From Glycomyces artemisiae (GTDB lineage Bacteria > Actinomycetota > Actinomycetes > Mycobacteriales > Micromonosporaceae): 64,000 nucleotides of DNA. Shown piece by piece: positions 3 to 56,909 of this stretch. The DNA is taken from contig NZ_PVTJ01000002.1 of the NCBI RefSeq assembly GCF_003002955.1, positions 620,001 through 684,000 of the forward strand, given 5' to 3'. Each line of letters starts with the position of its first letter. Within the stretch, counting starts at the first letter, position 1. The translations under genes were made by a program, and so were the position numbers. The notes beneath the pieces were generated by a model. The model saw nothing but the letters and a program-made list of their open reading frames with translations, was not told where the DNA came from and did no database searches.

Positions 3-1787
3 GACCCGGCCCGCGGCGCGATGATCACCTCCGACACCCGGGTCGAGTGGGTCGGCGCCACGCGCGCCGCGGCGGACCTCCCCTCGGACCTGCCGCTGCC
101 CGCCGGCCGCACCCCCGGCGAACGCATGCCGGCCTCCTACGGCGGCACCGCGAGCGCGGCCCGGCCGCGCACCGAGTCGCAGGCGCCGCTGTCGAATACG
201 CCTGCGCCGCAAGCCGTCCCGGGCGTCGCCCCGATCCCGTACGACGAGCTCGCGGGCGCGAAGATCCCCGCCGAGGAGCTGCGCGAACTCCTCGACCTGG
301 GCTTCAACCACCGCGAAGTCCTCAAGGTCGTCGGCACCGACATGGCCCTGGGCGTGCTCGTCTCGGGCCCGTCGGGCGCCGGGAAGGCCACGGTCGTCCG
401 CTCGGTCGCCGAGGCGGTCGGCGCGCGCGTCAGCGAGGTCTCCGGCTCCGACCTCGCGGCCCTGGAGGCGAACGCCGCGGCCGACCGGCTCCGCTCGGCC
501 GTCGCCGCGCTCGCGGTCCCCGGGGTGCTGCTCGTCCGCGGCGTCGAGCACCTCGCGCCCGCCGGGCGCCGGACGCCGTTGGGCACCATGTTCGCCCGCC
601 TCGTCGAGGAGGTCCTCGCCGAGCCGGGCGAGCACGCCGTGGTCTGCACGACCGCGCGCGTCGAGGATGTGGACCCGACACTGCGCTCGCGTCTGGAGCA
701 CGAGGTCGTCGTGCCCATGCCCGACGCCGAGGCCCGCCGCGACCTCCTCGTGTACTTCACCCGCTCGATGAAGGTGGCCGAGGACGTCAAGCTCGAAGCG
801 GTCGCCCACCGCGCCCCCGGCTACGTCGCCTCCGACCTCGCGGTCATGGTCCGCGAGGCCGGGGTGCGGGCCGCCCTGCGCGCCAAGGACGGCGGGGCCA
901 CCGCGCTTCAGATCGCCGACTTCGACGGCGCCCTCGAATCGGTGCGGCCCACCAGCCTCGCCGGGGACTCGGTCGAGCTCGGCGGGCTCACCCTCGCCGA
1001 CGTCGGCGGCATGGAGGACCTGAAGCAGACCCTCACCGAGACCGTCCTGTGGCCCCTCACGTACCCGGACGCGTTCACGCGCCTGGGCATCGAGGCCCCG
1101 CGCGGCATCCTCCTGTACGGCCCGCCCGGCTGCGGGAAGACCTACATCGTGCGCGCGGTCGCAGGCGAAGGCCATGCGAACGTCATGAGCGTCAAGGGGT
1201 CCGAGCTGCTGAACAAGTGGGTCGGCGAGTCCGAGAAGAACGTGCGCGAGCTCTTCCGCCGCGCCCGCCAGGCCAGCCCCACCCTCATGTTCTTCGACGA
1301 GCTCGACGCCCTCGCGCCGGTCCGCGGGGCCGGGACCGACGGCGGCACCGCCGACCGCGTGGTCGCCGCGCTCCTCACCGAGCTCGACGGCGCCGAGGCC
1401 CTGCGCGACGTCGTGGTCGTCGGCGCCACCAACCGCCCCGACATGATCGACCCGGCGCTCCTGCGCCCCGGCCGCCTGGAGCGCCTCGTCTACGTGCCGC
1501 CGCCCGACGCGCGCGGGCGCGCGGACATCTTGCGCGCCAACGCGAAGAACGTGCCCTTCGCCGAGGACGTCGACCTCGACGCCGTCGCCGACGAGCTGTG
1601 GCTCTACTCCGCCGCCGACTGCGCCGCCCTCGTCCGGGAGGCCGCCCTCACGGCCATGCGCGAGTCCCTCGACGCGAGCATCGTCACCGCCGGTCACGTC
1701 GAGCAGGCCATGGAGCGGGTCCGGCCCAGCCTCGACCCCGAGCAGCTGGAGTACCTGGAGAACTACGCCCAGAACCGCGAGGGATAG
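3..1787 (+). CDS. CDC48/VCP-like tandem AAA+ ATPase (5' end outside window)
   Basis: Two AAA+ modules in series, as in Cdc48/p97-type unfoldases that use ATP to pull proteins from complexes; the substrate is unknown. The frame is open to the left edge and the first residues (TRVEWVG) look like the end of a CDC48 N domain. The ATG at 21 is therefore probably internal. Counting from it, module 1 (about 95-270) has a Walker A of GPSGAGKA, with Ala replacing Thr/Ser, and VLLVRGVEH where the Asp-Glu of Walker B should be. Module 2 (about 325-560) is intact: GPPGCGKT, FFDELDAL, GATNRPD, LRPGRLER. Only the second ring is likely to hydrolyse ATP. A hairpin follows the stop. Confidence 0.88.
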   Translation, partial: DPARGAMITSDTRVEWVGATRAAADLPSDLPLPAGRTPGERMPASYGGTASAARPRTESQAPLSNTPAPQAVPGVAPIPYDELAGAKIPAEELRELLDLGFNHREVLKVVGTDMALGVLVSGPSGAGKATVVRSVAEAVGARVSEVSGSDLAALEANAAADRLRSAVAALAVPGVLLVRGVEHLAPAGRRTPLGTMFARLVEEVLAEPGEHAVVCTTARVEDVDPTLRSRLEHEVVVPMPDAEARRDLLVYFTRSMKVAEDVKLEAVAHRAPGYVASDLAVMVREAGVRAALRAKDGGATALQIADFDGALESVRPTSLAGDSVELGGLTLADVGGMEDLKQTLTETVLWPLTYPDAFTRLGIEAPRGILLYGPPGCGKTYIVRAVAGEGHANVMSVKGSELLNKWVGESEKNVRELFRRARQASPTLMFFDELDALAPVRGAGTDGGTADRVVAALLTELDGAEALRDVVVVGATNRPDMIDPALLRPGRLERLVYVPPPDARGRADILRANAKNVPFAEDVDLDAVADELWLYSAADCAALVREAALTAMRESLDASIVTAGHVEQAMERVRPSLDPEQLEYLENYAQNREG

Positions 1788-6712: not shown

Positions 6713-6727
6713 GCGAGAAGGCTCCTC

Positions 6728-6842
6728 CCTCATCTTTCCCGCTCGTGGCGGGCCGGATTTGGCACCTGCCGCAACGCCGTTAGGCGTGCCGGTGGTTGCC
6801 GCAGCGTCGCAGGGCCGGACCCCTCGGCTGCTCTGGATGAAG
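6728..6842 (-). promoter_or_regulatory. SAM-I (S-box) riboswitch upstream of thrC
   Basis: Read on the minus strand, the conserved S-box core is present in order: TTCATCCAGAG, GAGGGGTCCGGCCC, CGGCAACC, GGTGCCAAATCC and GGGAAAGATGAGG. P1 pairs CTTCATC (6842-6836) with GATGAGG (6734-6728). P4 pairs CCCGC with GCGGG. The last two G residues of P1 are also the first two of the thrC Shine-Dalgarno GGGAGGAG (6729-6722). Control of translation initiation is therefore the simplest model, and no separate terminator stem is visible. S-boxes usually shut genes off when SAM is abundant. Confidence 0.9.
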
Positions 6843-6852
6843 TACGAGCGAA

Positions 6853-10100: not shown

Positions 10101-11264
10101 TCAATCGAACAGGTCCGAGATGATCCCGGTGAGCTCTCCGAGGACGTCGTCCTCTTCTTCCGCCCCGGTGGTCGGGTCGGACGCGGGGCTGGAGGCCCCG
10201 CCGCTCGCGGGATCGGACGCGGGCGCGTCGGTCTGCTCGTCCGAGTCGGCCCCGGCGGTCGCCCCGCCGTCGGACCCGGTGGCCTCGCCCTCCTCGGGCT
10301 CGGCGCTGCCGCTCTCCCCGGTGCCGCCGGTCGCCCCGGGGGCCGCCGGCTCGGTGGCGTCGACGTTGTTCTGCGCGCACGCGCCGGGGATCGGGCCGAG
10401 CTCGTCGGCGCCGGCGCCGGGCTCGGTGCAGTCGAGCGACTCGCGCAGCTCGACGGACCTGACGGCCGCGGCCTCCAGGACCGACGCGAGCTCCTCGCCC
10501 GCGTCCCTGGCGTCGCCGCCGAGGTCGCCCACGAGGTCGTCGAGGACCCAGCGGTGCTCGTTGGCGAACAGGTCGAGGTAGTCGAGCGGCGCAGGATCGC
10601 CGTTCGCGACGGCGAGCTCGCCGAGGAGGGCGCTGGCGCTCTTCAGCTCCGATGTGGCGTCGGTGAGCGCGGCCGCCGCGGCCTCGTCGTCGTCGGCGAC
10701 GAGCTGGGCCTCCTGGATGCGGGTGCGCGCGAACTCCAGGTAGAGCTGCGCGCGGCCGAGGTCGTTGCCGGCGAGGGCCAGCTGCGCCCGCTCGGTGGAC
10801 CGCTTGACGTTGTAGAGCGTCTCGCCGGGGAGGGCGTCGCCGGAGGCCGCGGAGACCCCGGAGATGGCGACGGTGCCGGTGAGCAGCGCCGCGACGATCG
10901 CGATGCGCCTGCCGCCGCGGGGGCGGCGCGGGAACATCTCGTCGAGGACGGGCGCGCGCTTCGTCTCGGGGACGGCGGCGCTGGCGCGGTGCCTGGCGGT
11001 GACGCCGATGCCCTCTTCGGTGGCGACGGCCATGAGCCGCCTGCGGGTGGCGTCCTGCCAGTCCCTTGACGGTCGCGCGGTGTTGACGAGCTGGTCGCCC
11101 AGCCCGCCGAGCCGTTCGGTGACGCCGACGAGTTCGGCGAGTGCTTCTGCCGACGCACCCGATGCGTCCGCGCTGCGGCGCGAGTGAGGGAGGGTGGGTC
11201 CTTCGAAGTCAAGCAGCCGCGCGAATTCCTCCGCGCGTCGGCGCTCCATAGGGTTCAATGTCAC
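10101..11264 (-). CDS. RsbN-like anti-sigma factor (DUF5667-type membrane protein)
   Basis: A 387-residue protein with a cytoplasmic N-terminus (MERRRAEEFARLL onward), one membrane segment (RIAIVAALLTGTVAISGVSA, near residues 100-120), a helical extracellular DUF5667-like domain (DALPGETLYNVKRSTE, then LARAQLYLEFARTR) and a long Asp/Glu/Ser/Gly tail. It lies downstream of a BldN-type sigma gene, the position of RsbN, the Streptomyces membrane anti-sigma factor of BldN. The sigma-inhibiting role is inferred from topology and position. The GTG at 11264 is favoured because AGAGGGGG lies 9 nt upstream; GTG 11273 and ATG 11249 are alternatives. The 295-bp gap to the sigma gene leaves room for its own promoter. 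Confidence 0.75.
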   Translation of the reverse strand: MTLNPMERRRAEEFARLLDFEGPTLPHSRRSADASGASAEALAELVGVTERLGGLGDQLVNTARPSRDWQDATRRRLMAVATEEGIGVTARHRASAAVPETKRAPVLDEMFPRRPRGGRRIAIVAALLTGTVAISGVSAASGDALPGETLYNVKRSTERAQLALAGNDLGRAQLYLEFARTRIQEAQLVADDDEAAAAALTDATSELKSASALLGELAVANGDPAPLDYLDLFANEHRWVLDDLVGDLGGDARDAGEELASVLEAAAVRSVELRESLDCTEPGAGADELGPIPGACAQNNVDATEPAAPGATGGTGESGSAEPEEGEATGSDGGATAGADSDEQTDAPASDPASGGASSPASDPTTGAEEEDDVLGELTGIISDLFD

Positions 11265-11559
11265 CGGGCACACCCCCTCTCACTGCATGGATCCTGCTCC
11301 TGTACTGAGAACAACGCACGAGTAGCCCCTGAGGTTACGGTTCGCCGCGAACCTTGCGTTTCAGACCACATCGTCCTCGTCGCAGAAGGGTCTCGCGGCG
11401 GTATCGGGCCGGTAAAGGGCCCTGACCTGGCAGTTCCGGTCCGCCGTGAGGAGGCGGATCGTCGATTACGGGATAGCGGGCCGAGGCCCTTGGGAACGGG
11501 TGGTGTCGGGTTCCCGACGCATGCGGCCGGGAGGGGAGTTGCGGGGATCGGAGGGCCTC

Positions 11560-12414
11560 TCAGCCTCGGAAGCCGTCGGGGAGGAGCCGCGCGAGGGTCC
11601 GCACCGCCCGGTACTGGAGCGCTTTGACCGCGCCCTCGTTCTTGCCCATGGTGCGGGCGGTCTCGGCGACGGTGAACCCCTGGAGGAAGCGGAGCACGAT
11701 GCACTCCTGCTGGTCGGGGTTGAGCTTCTTGACGGCCGTGAGGAGGGTCGCGTTCGTCAGCTTCTCCAGCGCGGCGGTCTCGGGCGAGGTGCTCGGGTCG
11801 GAGTCCTTCTCGTCGGCGCCGAGGACGTCGGGCTTGACGATCTCCAGCCGGTACCGGCCGGACTTGAAGTGGTCGACCACGAGGTTCCGCGCGATGGTCA
11901 CCAGCCACGCGCCGAACGCCCGGCCCTGCCAGGAGAAGCTGGAGATGCGCCGCAGCGCGCGCAGGAACGTCTCGGACGCGAGGTCCTCGGCGAGCTGGGC
12001 GTTGTTGACGCGGAAGTAGATGTACCTGTAGACCGTCTCGTTGTAGCGGTCGTAGATCTCCCCGAAGGCCCCCGGGTCGCCGTCCTGGGCGCGCGCGACG
12101 AGGTCGGCGACCTCGTCGCCGTCGACCTGGTCCTCGTGGTGGTCGGTGCCGCGCGGCTCGGCAGCGCCTCCTGTGGCGCCGCCGGCGGAGCCGGGACCGG
12201 TGCCGCGGCCGGGCCGCACCTGGTGCTGTTCGGCGGTGCCGGTGTCCAGGCTGAGGACCGTCCACACGGCCTGCTTGAGCCGCGCGAAGGTCGGGGCCGG
12301 GTGCTGCGCGAGCAGCGAGCCGAGCGATCCGGGGTTGAAGAAGGGGGCGATGTCTGCTGTGAGCACTGCCGAGTCGTGGCTTGCCACAGCCAAGGTCGGT
12401 GCAATACCGGGCAC
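11560..12414 (-). CDS. bldN: BldN-type ECF sigma factor
   Basis: A 284-residue sigma factor. In Streptomyces, BldN switches on aerial-hypha genes, is made with an N-terminal extension that is removed, and is held by RsbN. Here sigma region 2 begins only near residue 107 (DLVARAQDGDPGAFGEIYDR), so a comparable extension of about 100 residues is present. Region 2 continues VYRYIYFRVNNAQLAEDL and TFLRALRRISSFSWQGR. Region 4 reads LRFLQGFTVAETARTMGKNE then LQYRAVRTLARLLPD, all very BldN-like. The GTG at 12414 follows GAGGAGG. Gene order (bldN, anti-sigma, then divergent glutaredoxin-rex-hem) supports the assignment. Confidence 0.88.
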   Translation of the reverse strand: MPGIAPTLAVASHDSAVLTADIAPFFNPGSLGSLLAQHPAPTFARLKQAVWTVLSLDTGTAEQHQVRPGRGTGPGSAGGATGGAAEPRGTDHHEDQVDGDEVADLVARAQDGDPGAFGEIYDRYNETVYRYIYFRVNNAQLAEDLASETFLRALRRISSFSWQGRAFGAWLVTIARNLVVDHFKSGRYRLEIVKPDVLGADEKDSDPSTSPETAALEKLTNATLLTAVKKLNPDQQECIVLRFLQGFTVAETARTMGKNEGAVKALQYRAVRTLARLLPDGFRG

Positions 12415-21763: not shown

Positions 21764-21927
21764 TTGGCAAAGGCATTCACCCGAGGCTAGGCTCACACCA
21801 CGCTCCGCGGTGCTCGCACCGCGCTGCGCGCGTCCCAGCGCGGGGACCTGGTGTTCCCGTCCTGCGGCGGACAACCGCCTTTTACCACGGATCGTCTGGC
21901 ACGTGCCTGCCAGTGAAAGGGAACATC
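21764..21927 (+). promoter_or_regulatory. msiK promoter and structured 5' leader
   Basis: TTGGCA (21764-21769), 18 nt, TAGGCT (21788-21793) make a good housekeeping promoter, giving a leader of about 128 nt. The leader folds strongly: CGCGGTG-CTCG-CACCGCG (21806-21823), GTCC/GGAC pairs further on, and the palindrome GGCACGTGCC just before the ribosome binding site. A conserved RNA element named after msiK has been described upstream of such genes in actinobacteria. Whether this is that element needs a covariance-model search. Confidence 0.55.
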
Positions 21928-23022
<1,095 letters not shown>

Positions 23023-30620: not shown

Positions 30621-30627
30621 TTCGCCC

Positions 30628-30712
30628 GTCTCCCACGCGGCGTCATCTTGTGAACCTCCCCAGGGCCGGAAGGCAGCAAGGATAAGCGGGCTCTGGCGGG
30701 TGTGTGGGAGAC
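30628..30712 (+). ncRNA. ffs: Bacterial small SRP RNA (4.5S)
   Basis: The ends pair as a long hairpin (GTCTCCCAC at 30628-30636 with GTGGGAGAC at 30704-30712). The conserved domain IV contains GGCCGGAAGGCAGCAAGG with the GGAA tetraloop and the asymmetric AGCA internal loop that bind Ffh. It guides membrane proteins to the SRP receptor. It is 85 nt, located between tRNA-Ser and tRNA-Thr. Confidence 0.92.
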
Positions 30713-30715
30713 CCC

Positions 30716-30791
30716 GCCGCCTTAGCTCAGTCGGCAGAGCGATTCACTCGTAATGAATAGGTCGTCGGTTCGATTCCGACAGGCGGCTCCA
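30716..30791 (+). tRNA. tRNA-Thr (anticodon CGT)
   Basis: Acceptor GCCGCCT (30716-30722) pairs with AGGCGGC (30781-30787), discriminator T, encoded CCA. The anticodon stem ATTCA/TGAAT holds the loop CTCGTAA, anticodon CGT, reading ACG. It starts 3 bases after the SRP RNA, so both may come from one precursor. Confidence 0.97.
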
Positions 30792-53367: not shown

Positions 53368-54546
53368 CTAGGCCCCCTTGTTCGCGAGCTCGGCGGCCTT
53401 GTCGGCCGCGGCGTCCATGGTCTCGACCACGGTGATGAGCGGGTGGTTGGCGTCGGCGAGGATCTTGCGACCCTCTTCGGCGTTGTTGCCGTCGATGCGG
53501 GCGACGAGCGGCTTGGTGACGTCCTCGCCGCGGTCGGCGAGCGTCTGGAGCGCGCCGAGGATGCCGCGGGCGACCTCGTCGCAGGCGGTGATCCCGCCGA
53601 AGATGTTCACGAACACGGCCTTGACCTGCGGGTCCGACAGGACCACTTCAAGGCCGTTGGCCATGACGGCCGCGGAGGCGCCGCCGCCGATGTCGAGGAA
53701 GTTCGCGGGCTTGACGCCCCCGTGGCCCTCACCGGCGTACGACACGACGTCGAGGGTGGACATGACGAGGCCGGCGCCGTTGCCGATGATGCCGACGGAG
53801 CCGTCGAGCTTCACGTAGTTGAGGCCGGAGTCCTTGGCGCGCTGCTCCAGCGGGTCGACCGAGGACTTGTCCTCGAACTCGGCGTTGTCGGGGTGGCGGA
53901 AGTCCGCGTTCTCGTCGAGGGTGACCTTCGCGTCGAGCGCGAGGACCTTGCCCTCGGGCGTGCGCACGAGCGGGTTGACCTCGACGAGGGTCGCGTCCTC
54001 GGCGACGAAGGCGTCCCAGAGCTTCACGAAGACGTCCACGAGCTGGTCGCGGAGGTCCTCGGGGAAGCCGGCCTTGGTGACGATGCCGTCGGCGATCTCC
54101 GCGGTGACGCCGGTGCCGGCGTCGATCGGGAGCTTCACGACCTTCTCGGGGGCGGTGTGGGCGACCTCTTCGATCTCCATGCCGCCCGCGGTCGACGCGA
54201 TGCACAGGAACGTGCGGTTCGCGCGGTCGAGGAGGTACGAGAAGTAGTACTCCTCGTCGATGTCGGCGGTCACGGTGAGCATGACCTTCTCGACGGTGTG
54301 GCCCTTGATGTCCATGCCGAGGATGTTCGTGGCGTGGGTGTTGACCTCGTCCACGGTGTCGGCCAGCTTGACCCCGCCGGCTTTGCCGCGGCCGCCGACC
54401 TTCACCTGCGCTTTGACGACCACCCGGTCGCCGAGGCGCTCGGCGAGCGCAACGGCCTCCTGTGTGGTGGTGGCGACGCCGCCGTCCAGAACCGGCACTC
54501 CGTGCCGGGCGAACAGTGCGCGGCCCTGGTATTCGTACAGATCCAC
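53368..54546 (-). CDS. sucC: Succinyl-CoA ligase beta subunit
   Basis: Nucleotide-binding subunit with an ATP-grasp fold. 392 residues: [59 protein letters not shown], and the C-terminal [18 protein letters not shown]. It joins succinate, CoA and a nucleotide triphosphate reversibly, and connects to methylmalonyl-CoA metabolism, hinted at by the B12-binding gene upstream. The upstream 600 bp contain a remarkable hairpin array. Confidence 0.97.
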
Positions 54547-55155
54547 TGTAGAGTCCGCTCCACTAGCTAGTCTTCTTTGACCGGACTGCCTGGGCCTCCC
54601 CGCCCGGGCCCGGTGCGGGCCGCGGCCTCGGCGAACCGGGTCCGGTCAGGCGGGGGAAAGCTACAGGTGCCCGTTATCGCAGGGTAACGCGCGGCGAGCC
54701 GCCCCGGGTCCGGGCGGGCGGCCGGTGTGACGAGTCAGGCTTGGGATGCCGTTTGCCGGGCCCTTGCAGGCGATTCACGGTCCGGCGGGGCGGTTGTGCG
54801 GGGTCCGCGGGGAAAGAGGCGGGGACCGGACGCACCCCTCAGGCGTCCGGTCCCCTCAGCGGGAACCAAGCCCACCCCTCAAAGGCTTGATTCCCTTAGG
54901 CACGATGCCCTATCGCCACCCCTCAATCGACAGGGCATCGGCAGCTTGTGGCACAGCTCAATTGCACGACGCTTCGGAAGTGAACCCCCGGTGAAGCCTC
55001 TGCGCTATTGTCCGGCGGCCTTTCGGCCGACTGCTGATGCGTCTTCCGCGGCTTTGCTTCCGCGTCCGACACTTATAAGAACGAGGGCCGCCAGGCGCGG
55101 TTACGGTCTCTTCGAAGAATTTTTTGCAGCGGGCGTATCCGCAGGCCAGGGCCGA
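54547..55155. other. 609-bp region without a gene upstream of sucC
   Basis: Apart from the hairpin array at 54821-54940, it holds GC-rich inverted repeats near sucC (54590-54660), a GGCC-TTTC-GGCC hairpin near 55020 and AT-rich bases near 55110-55126. Short open frames on both strands lack coding character. The length is unusual next to housekeeping genes in this compact genome. Confidence 0.6.
54821..54940 (-). ncRNA. Array of three hairpins with an identical UGAGGGGU loop (candidate structured RNA)
   Basis: Read on the minus strand: hairpin A (54940-54903) has a 13-bp stem, hairpin B (54895-54861) 12 bp, hairpin C (54855-54821) 13 bp, separated by 7 and 5 nt. The stems are unrelated in sequence, but the loops are ATTGAGGGGTGG, TTTGAGGGGTG and CTGAGGGGT. 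Stems A and B each have one mismatch on the plus strand (A-C) that becomes a G-U pair on the minus strand, which identifies the RNA strand. The array lies about 275 nt upstream of sucC and in its direction. It may be a sucCD leader or a separate small RNA. I know of no named family with this form. Confidence 0.75.
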
Positions 55156-55587
55156 TCAGACGGCCGCAGGGCTGCCCTGATCGGGTGAGGGCACATGGCC
55201 GCGGACCCATTCGGCGATGGCCTGGGTCGAGGCGCCGGGGCCGAATATCTGCGCTACTCCGGCTTCGCGCAACTGGGCCGCGTCCTCGTCGGGAATGATG
55301 CCGCCGCCGAATACGACGATGTCGCGCGCGTCGTTCTCGTCGAGGAGTTTCAGCACCCGCGGGAAGAGCGTCATATGGGCGCCGGAGAGGATGCTCAGCC
55401 CGATCGCGTCGGCGTCCTCGGCGAGGGCGGTCGCGACGACCTGCTCGGGGGAGTTGTGGAGGCCCGTGTAGACGACCTCCATGCCCGCGTCGCGCAGCGC
55501 GCGGGCCACGACCTTCGCTCCGCGGTCGTGGCCGTCGAGCCCGACCTTGGCGACGACGACGCGTATGGGCGCCCCGGTTGCAGTCAT
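55156..55587 (-). CDS. Stand-alone cobalamin-binding domain protein (methylmalonyl-CoA mutase small-domain type)
   Basis: 143 residues, equal to the C-terminal B12 domain of methylmalonyl-CoA mutase. The cobalamin signature is DGHDRGAK (His ligating cobalt), followed by [10 protein letters not shown] and [11 protein letters not shown] separate large catalytic subunit must be encoded elsewhere; with it, an acyl-CoA mutase (methylmalonyl, isobutyryl or ethylmalonyl type) would result. Its product succinyl-CoA, if methylmalonyl-type, feeds SucCD. ATG at 55587 after GGAGG. Confidence 0.9.
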
Positions 55588-55698
55588 CTGTACCTCCTCG
55601 TACGGAGGCCGCGGCGCCTGCGTCGCTCGTGGCGATCGTCGGCGCCGCGGCCAGTTCATACGAGTGAGCTTAGTCGCGACCGGTGCGGGTTGGAAGTC

Positions 55699-56766
55699 CT
55701 ACTGGCCGTAGGGCGGCTGCTGCGGCTGCTGCTGGCCCGGCTGCCCGTAGCCGGGAGGCGGCGGCGGGTACCCGCCGGGCTGCTGCCCCGGCTGGCCCTG
55801 CGGCGGGCCGTAGCCCTGCGGGGGCTGCTGCGGCTGGCCGGGCTGCGGGTAGCCGCCCGGCTGCTGGTACGCGCCGGGCTGCTGCCCGTACCCGGGCTGC
55901 GGGTAGCCCGCGGGCGCGGCGGCCTGCGGGCCCCGGATGAACGCCTTGACGGCCTCGTCCTTGAAGTAGATGAAGCTGGCGTAGCCGAGCGTGCCGGCGA
56001 GGGCCAGGCTCTGGAGGAGCAGGACCGCCCCGAGGCCGCCGAACAGCGCGAAGGCCGAGAACGAGCCGAAGATTGACAGGATCGAGAACCCCGCGCCGAT
56101 CATGATGAGGATGATGCCGGTCAGGCGCAGGCCCGCGGGATTGACCTTGCCCTGCGGCAGCGCCCAGCCGTACCAGCCGAAGGCGCCGCAGATGAGGATG
56201 CCGAAGACGGCCGAGCCGACGTAGAAGCCGCCGAAGGTGAAGACCTGGACGAGGTTGCCGAGGACGCCGACGCCCGCGGCGATGAGCACCATCAGGCCGA
56301 TGCGCTTGATGCCCTCCGGGACCGCGCCCTGCGGCCCGGTGGCCTGCGGCTGCGGGAAGCCCGCCTGCGGCGGGGGCGGCGGGTAGCCGGGCTGCTGGGG
56401 CTGGCCCGGCTGGCCGTACGGCTGCTGGCCGGTCTGGGGGAGCTGGCCGGAGCCGAGCGGGTTCGGCTGCGGCGGCTGCGGGGTCCCGGCCGGGTTGAAC
56501 CCGGTCTGGGAGCCGGTCTGCGGCATGACCGTGGTCTCGGCGTACTCCGCGTGCGGCGGGTTCGACGGGCCGGTCGGGTTGCCGAGCGGGGAGGGCGGCG
56601 GGGGCGGGGTGCCCTGCTGGGCCTCGACCCGGTTGATCTTCATGGTGCGGTCGAGTCCGGCCTCCTCCCCTCCTTCAGGGGCCGCGGCGGGCGGCTGCGC
56701 GCCGGGCTTGAGCTTGAAGGTGCCGCCGTCCTCGTCGTCGGGTCGGTCGTTCTCTGGGGGAGTCAT
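55699..56766 (-). CDS. Multi-pass membrane protein with Pro/Gly/Gln-rich cytoplasmic arms
   Basis: 355 residues. An acidic start ([19 protein letters not shown]) and a Pro/Gln-rich arm (about 1-165) lead into four hydrophobic helices ([73 protein letters not shown]), then a second arm of repeated [14 protein letters not shown] units (about 290-355). No function is recognised; the arms suggest an unstructured scaffold. The ATG at 56766 is chosen over a frame reaching 56829 because homology-like acidic sequence begins there. The purine-rich repeats could complicate assembly. Confidence 0.7.
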
Positions 56767-56909
56767 GACATCCACTCTCCATGCCGGATCGGTTGTGACT
56801 GCTCTCCACCTCACCTTACCGACCGTCACGCCGCAAGGGGGTATGCCGTCCGAACAGGGGCGCGCGGGGAGGGCGCCGCACCGGCGTCAGCGGCGGATCG
56901 CCAACCGGC

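Follow-up and report, generated by a model that had tools for sequence, protein, structure and literature searches.

A putative small RNA family with identical hairpin loops beside sucC in Glycomyces and related actinomycetes, and its candidate BldN-type promoter

The window analysed here is the whole of a 64,000-nucleotide stretch of the genome of the soil bacterium Glycomyces artemisiae. In its last part a gap of 609 bp (54547-55155), which the first-pass annotation had rightly put at about 600 bp, separates sucC from a gene for a small B12-binding protein; it contains three minus-strand hairpins, preceded by a promoter-like block. The features of interest are the following.

11560-12414, minus strand: BldN orthologue, the proposed sigma factor (PDB 6dxo_A, which we take to be the S. 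venezuelae BldN chain, E 2.7e-64; TIGR02952, 206.1 bits)
53368-54546, minus strand: sucC, a neighbour outside the RNA gene (Pfam PF08442 and PF00549)
54812-54820, minus strand: tail GCCTCTTTC after H3, a weak U-rich run
54821-54855, minus strand: hairpin H3, loop CTGAGGGGT(G), 13 bp, or 15 in the minimum-energy fold; the last hairpin, in a terminator-like position
54861-54895, minus strand: hairpin H2, loop TTTGAGGGGT(G), 13 bp
54900-54942, minus strand: hairpin H1, loop ATTGAGGGGTGG, 12 uninterrupted bp or 15 bp across one bulged U, with little sequence change family-wide
54943-55072, minus strand: predicted 5' part of the RNA, with a predicted start near TGTCGG, a length that varies among genera and an uncertain 5' hairpin, H0
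55079-55105, minus strand: predicted ECF/BldN-type promoter CGTAACC-N15-TCGTTC, a conserved block upstream of the RNA
55156-55659, minus strand: neighbouring gene for a small B12-binding protein with the methylmalonyl-CoA mutase C-terminal domain (PF02310, TIGR00640)

Beside the mutase-domain gene there is also a 376-aa open reading frame (55702-56829, minus strand) which has no Pfam or NCBIfam match and may not be a genuine gene.

The three hairpins are arrayed in the order H1-H2-H3 at 54821-54942, separated by 4- and 5-nt linkers, and their loops are all UGAGGGGUG, with TGAGGGGTG present in every one and TGAGGGGT followed by G in each. The predicted loops measure 12 nt in H1 and 9 nt in H2, while the minimum-energy fold of H3 places two extra pairs within the loop, leaving an inner 4-nt loop. 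The 140-nt stretch with the hairpins has a fold energy of -81.5 kcal/mol (z = -5.5), matched by none of 200 shuffles, which confirms the first-pass description of three minus-strand hairpins sharing a loop. The pattern YTGAGGGGTGS has four sites in the 5.79-Mb genome, three of them being the window hairpin loops, and its reversed control pattern also has four. Within the window alone an 8-mer loop count gave five matches, a number reached by 3 of 100 shuffles and thus weaker evidence. The hairpin cluster is far from chance. Stems that were said to differ completely do so when one hairpin is compared with another, but within the genus every stem is strongly conserved. A fourth TGAGGGG in the linker (54852-54858), also pointed out in the first pass, is present in just one of 21 other genus members and is not conserved. 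That annotation knew of no named element of this form, and no Rfam family matched: Rfam 15 covariance models gave nothing at the element, both over the whole window at the gathering cut-off and over 54500-55200 at E up to 1, where the best sub-threshold match (mir-133, E 0.081) is a chance one.

The first-pass annotation had expected two or more such hairpins to recur in relatives if its reading was sound, and they recur across the family. The genome collection searched places Glycomyces and most carriers in one family (f1), which was surveyed by BLAST with the two-hairpin form (H1 and H3) as query. Matches were obtained in 297 of 300 family genomes, one of them spurious on inspection, and in 43 of 44 genera, as well as in all 282 genomes that are at least 90% complete and at most 5% contaminated. 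The three genomes without a match (G061, G098, G127) are each less than 90% complete. Three weak matches were opened, of which those in G049 and G074 are real, the latter truncated by a contig end, and that in G144 (96% complete) is not this RNA, so that 296 of 300 and 281 of 282 are the better figures. Most family genomes have one match each and some list two. Identity to the query is 95-100% for the top matches listed and 78-99% for 33 matches from a set of 36 genomes chosen mainly for divergence. Among 24 records with the H1 pattern, 19 belong to Glycomyces, two to Stackebrandtia, two to Hamadaea and one to an Actinomycetes MAG; in the NCBI taxonomy Hamadaea belongs to Micromonosporaceae and Glycomyces to Glycomycetaceae.

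All 21 other Glycomyces members searched match and keep three GAGGGGT loops, and the three hairpins are visible in the alignment of the window with 16 of them. Hairpin H2 was seen in the window, in these 21 and in one 3.5-Mb relative (G049, locus L133), whose three hairpins are Glycomyces-like. It was not seen in other genera among the rows listed, which carry H1 and H3 over about 90 nt.

Beyond the family, model searches of some 300 genomes each were run with strict filters. Of the 298 genomes in the order-wide search 55 matched, all of them family members except one (G341, E 5.5e-4), and the phylum-wide search matched four of 296, two in the family and two judged by eye to be terminator-like chance hits. 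Thirty loci upstream of sucC were examined, taken from 38 places in 33 genomes, and only G036 and G341, both of family f13, gave convincing homologues, the former by an automatic scan of these loci and the latter by the order-wide model search followed by reading by eye. These copies are divergent from sucC and possess CGTTAC-N16-CGTTG (spacing by eye), a first hairpin with a different loop and a second with TCGAGGGGTG; they look like an older or reduced form of the RNA. Two further loci have an unproven link to the RNA: G566 (locus L164; a 9.2-Mb genome of the same class) has, upstream of sucC, a pair of hairpins with TTGGGGTGGG-like loops, one per strand, with no promoter of the GTAAC-CGTT type seen, and locus L193 has a single short GAGGGGTAG hairpin. 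A DNA search of 16 same-order genomes outside the family with the Glycomyces element gave one match (G031), which is a 31-base piece of the 3' flank and not the RNA. A plasmid search with H1 and H3 of locus L034 and a phage search with the window element gave no match.

The stems also covary. In an alignment of 31 distinct rows, 98.8% of cells are paired and 12 of 28 pairs have changes on both sides; such changes number 57 cells, compared with 10.8 in shuffles and 2-8 in slid controls, while further pair types (26 against 25.8 in shuffles) show no excess. Most of this covariation is held by H3, with both-side changes in 10 of its 13 pairs across the 31 sequences. Of the 15 pairs of H1, seven never vary, six vary on one side and two on both, and the variation consists mostly of G-U/U-G exchanges that pair on the RNA strand only. 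This agrees with the first-pass observation of G-U pairs on that strand, one each in H1 and H2 of the window. AGGGGT is present in the loops of H1 and of the last hairpin in all 62 distinct cores (from 117 loci), a set for which the H1 loop entered the selection and the last-hairpin loop did not. Two loops per core were counted in 48 cases and three in 14, with L075 counted as two since its third is a stem match. Loci L073 and L077 have one more AGGGGT-type loop motif, situated in the 5' part just upstream of H1 and, in L073, within a hairpin. As the sequence of H1 is conserved beyond the needs of pairing and H3 keeps its loop, we infer that the loop and H1 are functional surfaces. Constant loops on free stems suggest that something reads the loops, and a loop-binding partner, as proposed in the first pass, is implied by the covarying stems and by the 62 cores. 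Its likening of the loop to a Shine-Dalgarno sequence is weak, the invariant AGGGGU being by inspection not the best anti-SD match.

Upstream of the RNA the block CGTAACC-N15-TCGTT is near-invariant, and the distance from CGTT to H1 ranges from 41 to 161 nt. GTAAC-N-CGTT was found in 107 of 113 distinct upstream sequences (a set that excludes loci L085 and L091), with a spacing of N16 in 98, N17 in eight and N15 in one; by eye, the remaining six have CGTTAC (five) or CGTCAC (one). Among the 98 with N16, GTAAC is always preceded by C and CGTT always by T, C follows GTAAC in 94, and CGTT is followed by G in 74 and then by A in 73, all of these bases lying outside the search pattern. The passage on BldN in PMC2375139, a tool paper, states that this sigma factor "recognizes" the motif CGTAACN16CGTTGA, which the family consensus fits. 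The window promoter ends in CGTTC and not CGTTGA and has one mismatch to CGTAACN16CGTTG. Within the window it is the only site with at most one mismatch to that motif; at up to two mismatches there are 10 sites, with 12.3 expected by chance and no excess. Four genomes were scanned for the exact 28-base motif. In two of them (G024 and G134) the promoter of the RNA is the sole site, in G022 it is one of two, and the window's genome has two sites, neither at the RNA; the reversed control gave one site over the four genomes. With the ending CGTTS there are four sites in the window's genome, six in G024, two in G134 and three in G022, with 0, 0, 2 and 2 in the reversed control. Some of the other motif sites lie inside genes (by eye).

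The explanation we consider probable is that the element is a stand-alone gene for a trans-acting small RNA, most likely driven by BldN, with identical loops that dock one partner. Transcription would start from one ECF-type promoter, with BldN, a developmental sigma factor, as its most likely reader, and give an RNA of about 130-270 nt, ending at or shortly past H3 and carrying H1 and H3, plus the extra H2 in Glycomyces, each exposing the loop. Termination at H3 is unsure, since this hairpin is followed by TTT in only 39 of the 97 distinct tails. In the 5' part a weak signal for H0 was obtained, since 58 of 107 leaders pair at least six bases, compared with 38.6% in shuffles. The repeated identical loops would act as several docking sites for one RNA or protein partner. 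The favoured partner would be C-rich stretches (CACCCCUC) in target mRNAs, with a loop-binding protein nearly as likely. The only other YTGAGGGGTGS in the genome lies on the antisense strand immediately before urtA (locus L260, upstream of 203-1465, minus strand), a gene assigned to the urea transporter UrtA with TIGR03407 (578 bits). The 11-base complement of the loop motif lies there on the sense strand and ends 35 nt before the assumed urtA start, and a 5-bp stem can present its C-rich stretch in a loop, but 14.5% of the locus positions allow the same. Since four sites were also obtained with the reversed control pattern, one such site by chance is to be expected, and the urtA site is a lead only.

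The main alternative, which we hold to be possible but less likely, is a protein-titrating RNA whose repeated loops sequester one RNA-binding protein. CsrB and RsmZ titrate CsrA, and EutX and Rli55 titrate ANTAR proteins. The two or three identical loops per RNA, their constancy on variable stems and the extra 5' loop motif of L073 and L077 would all suit such a function. Like CsrB and RsmZ, the RNA has several hairpins and one repeated loop motif, but the GGA core of CsrA-type loops is absent from its AGGGGU loops. It also resembles the ANTAR-target RNAs, as described in parts of PMC8164766 and PMC3369931, in its tandem stem-loops with similar loops, and AGGGGU has the A at position 1 and G at position 4 of ANTAR loops if, and only if, those six bases count as the loop. 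The window linkers fall within the 2-25 nt given there for the two stem-loops. However, ANTAR loops are hexanucleotides according to the same parts of these papers, while the RNA has predicted loops of 9-12 nt on 12-15-bp stems and neither H1 nor H2 has a hexaloop. Also against titration, the genome has just one further YTGAGGGGTGS, closable by a 5-bp stem only, so that no group of matching mRNA sites is seen, although sites with a shorter core may exist. The scarcity of further copies of the loop is a mild argument against a sponge mimicking mRNA sites with this sequence, and for this reason pairing with mRNAs is ranked slightly above protein titration.

As regards the regulator, the BldN orthologue lies 43 kb from the RNA, and its TIGR02952 ("BldN family") score is 0.35 bits short of the cut-off of 206.45. 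It is followed by a 390-aa gene (10101-11273, minus strand) which occupies the position of the anti-sigma gene rsbN and matched no NCBIfam model; rsbN adjoins bldN in Streptomyces (PMC4255298, in part). No site with up to two mismatches to CGTAAC-N16-CGTTG was found between the two window genes. The same small RNA may instead depend on a different ECF sigma factor whose motif resembles that of BldN, which we regard as rather doubtful. There are 70 PF08281 matches in the window's own genome, not all of them sigma factors, the motifs of ECF sigma factors overlap one another (PMC6767563, passages on promoter motifs), and no bldM promoter was recognised as a control among the motif sites found. 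Against this, the motif fits that of BldN, as the 98 N16 sequences have CGTAAC and CGTT at its spacing of 16, continued by G and A in most cases (PMC2375139, motif passage). They differ from the sigma-E sites listed in PMC6767563, mostly with an AAC -35 and a GTC-type -10, and from the SigR motif GGAAT-N18-GTT, as given in the corresponding passage of PMC2375139. BldN-like proteins (E up to 1e-30) were detected in 27 of 44 genomes tested, including all 11 family members and 16 genomes outside the family. Of these 16, 14 are without a detected copy of the RNA, which, like the CGTTC ending of the window promoter and the lack of a site before the gene in the rsbN position, counts against the favoured explanation. 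Convincing BldN orthologues are restricted to morphologically complex actinomycetes according to a passage of PMC4255298.

Going further, and tentatively, the BldN developmental pathway of Micromonosporaceae, Glycomycetaceae and one or more additional families may have this as its core small RNA, which through its several identical G-rich loops would carry much of the BldN output post-transcriptionally, possibly including repression of urtA. If so, BldN would act via an RNA besides BldM and the chaplins. Conservation in 43 of the 44 sampled family genera, the lack of an Rfam family, the BldN hypothesis and an easily mutated loop would make it possible to test directly whether RNA is used in the bld cascade, and the element may be a missing RNA part of development.

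A cis-acting leader of sucC, the setting implied in the first-pass annotation, with a transcript running toward sucC whose hairpins would regulate that gene, is very improbable. The window does have the RNA on one strand with sucC and the mutase-domain gene, and 10 of the 101 distinct loci, including the window, L132 and L133, show a co-directional sucC downstream of the RNA. However, sucC is upstream of the RNA and on the opposite strand in 86 of the 101 (it was not found within the examined stretch in the other five), so the RNA points away from it, and the RNA has its own conserved promoter-like block. The B12 gene was found in 82 of these 86 loci; the four without it include both f13 genomes. 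Clades differ in the orientation of the RNA inside one retained slot between the mutase C-terminal-domain gene and sucC, and the RNA is most simply an independent gene.

That the element is a short coding gene, with an ATG frame across H1 reading MPCRSRGGGGASC or near, is scarcely credible. The first 13 codons appear conserved because H1 is conserved, but the frame stops at codon 19 in 33 of the 62 distinct cores and anywhere from codon 4 to codon 50 in others, stays open in 12 and has no ATG in one, while changes in H1 follow pairing; a small peptide was rejected on these grounds. Plain terminators or repeats without a function of their own are just as hard to credit, as the strong GC hairpins, the TTT runs mentioned above and the two terminator-like hits in the phylum are set against constant loops on covarying stems, a nearly unchanged H1, the promoter-like block and single matches in most family genomes.

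Other known RNAs show likenesses of a more general kind. The actinobacterial 6C RNA has two hairpins with homopolymer-rich, C-rich loops, whereas this RNA is G-rich and its locus has no match to RF01066. The first-pass annotation had suggested 6C RNA as a possible pairing partner of the loops; 6C RNA had no match in the genome as a whole, in a search that detected one of 14 control genomes, below the cut-off. Like Ms1, a 6S-like RNA of actinobacteria, it has a small RNA gene whose intergenic slot is conserved, but Ms1 lies beside HAD hydrolase/oxidoreductase genes, binds the RNA polymerase core and has a large internal bulge that the predicted fold lacks (PMC9130861, sections on Ms1). The same sections imply that Ms1 was apparently not detected in Glycomycetales. 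The proposed control by an ECF factor recalls the E. coli sigma-E-dependent small RNAs (PMC6767563, in part), the difference being that BldN is a developmental sigma factor. Openly licensed papers yielded no description of the RNA, and the comparison of genomes points to a genuine family of small RNAs, undescribed within the literature searched, for which there is a strong candidate regulator. To our knowledge, few actinobacterial small RNAs combine deep conservation with a named candidate regulator.

Some minor observations can be added. A CGTAAC-N16-CGTTG site (locus L243; G000:C1:391831-391857, minus strand) precedes a gene for a small protein (MSIEYNELL...) and may mark a further BldN target. 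Elsewhere in the window, Rfam models identify a SAM riboswitch (6727-6843, minus strand), an msiK RNA (21870-21928, plus strand) and the SRP RNA (30625-30718, plus strand).
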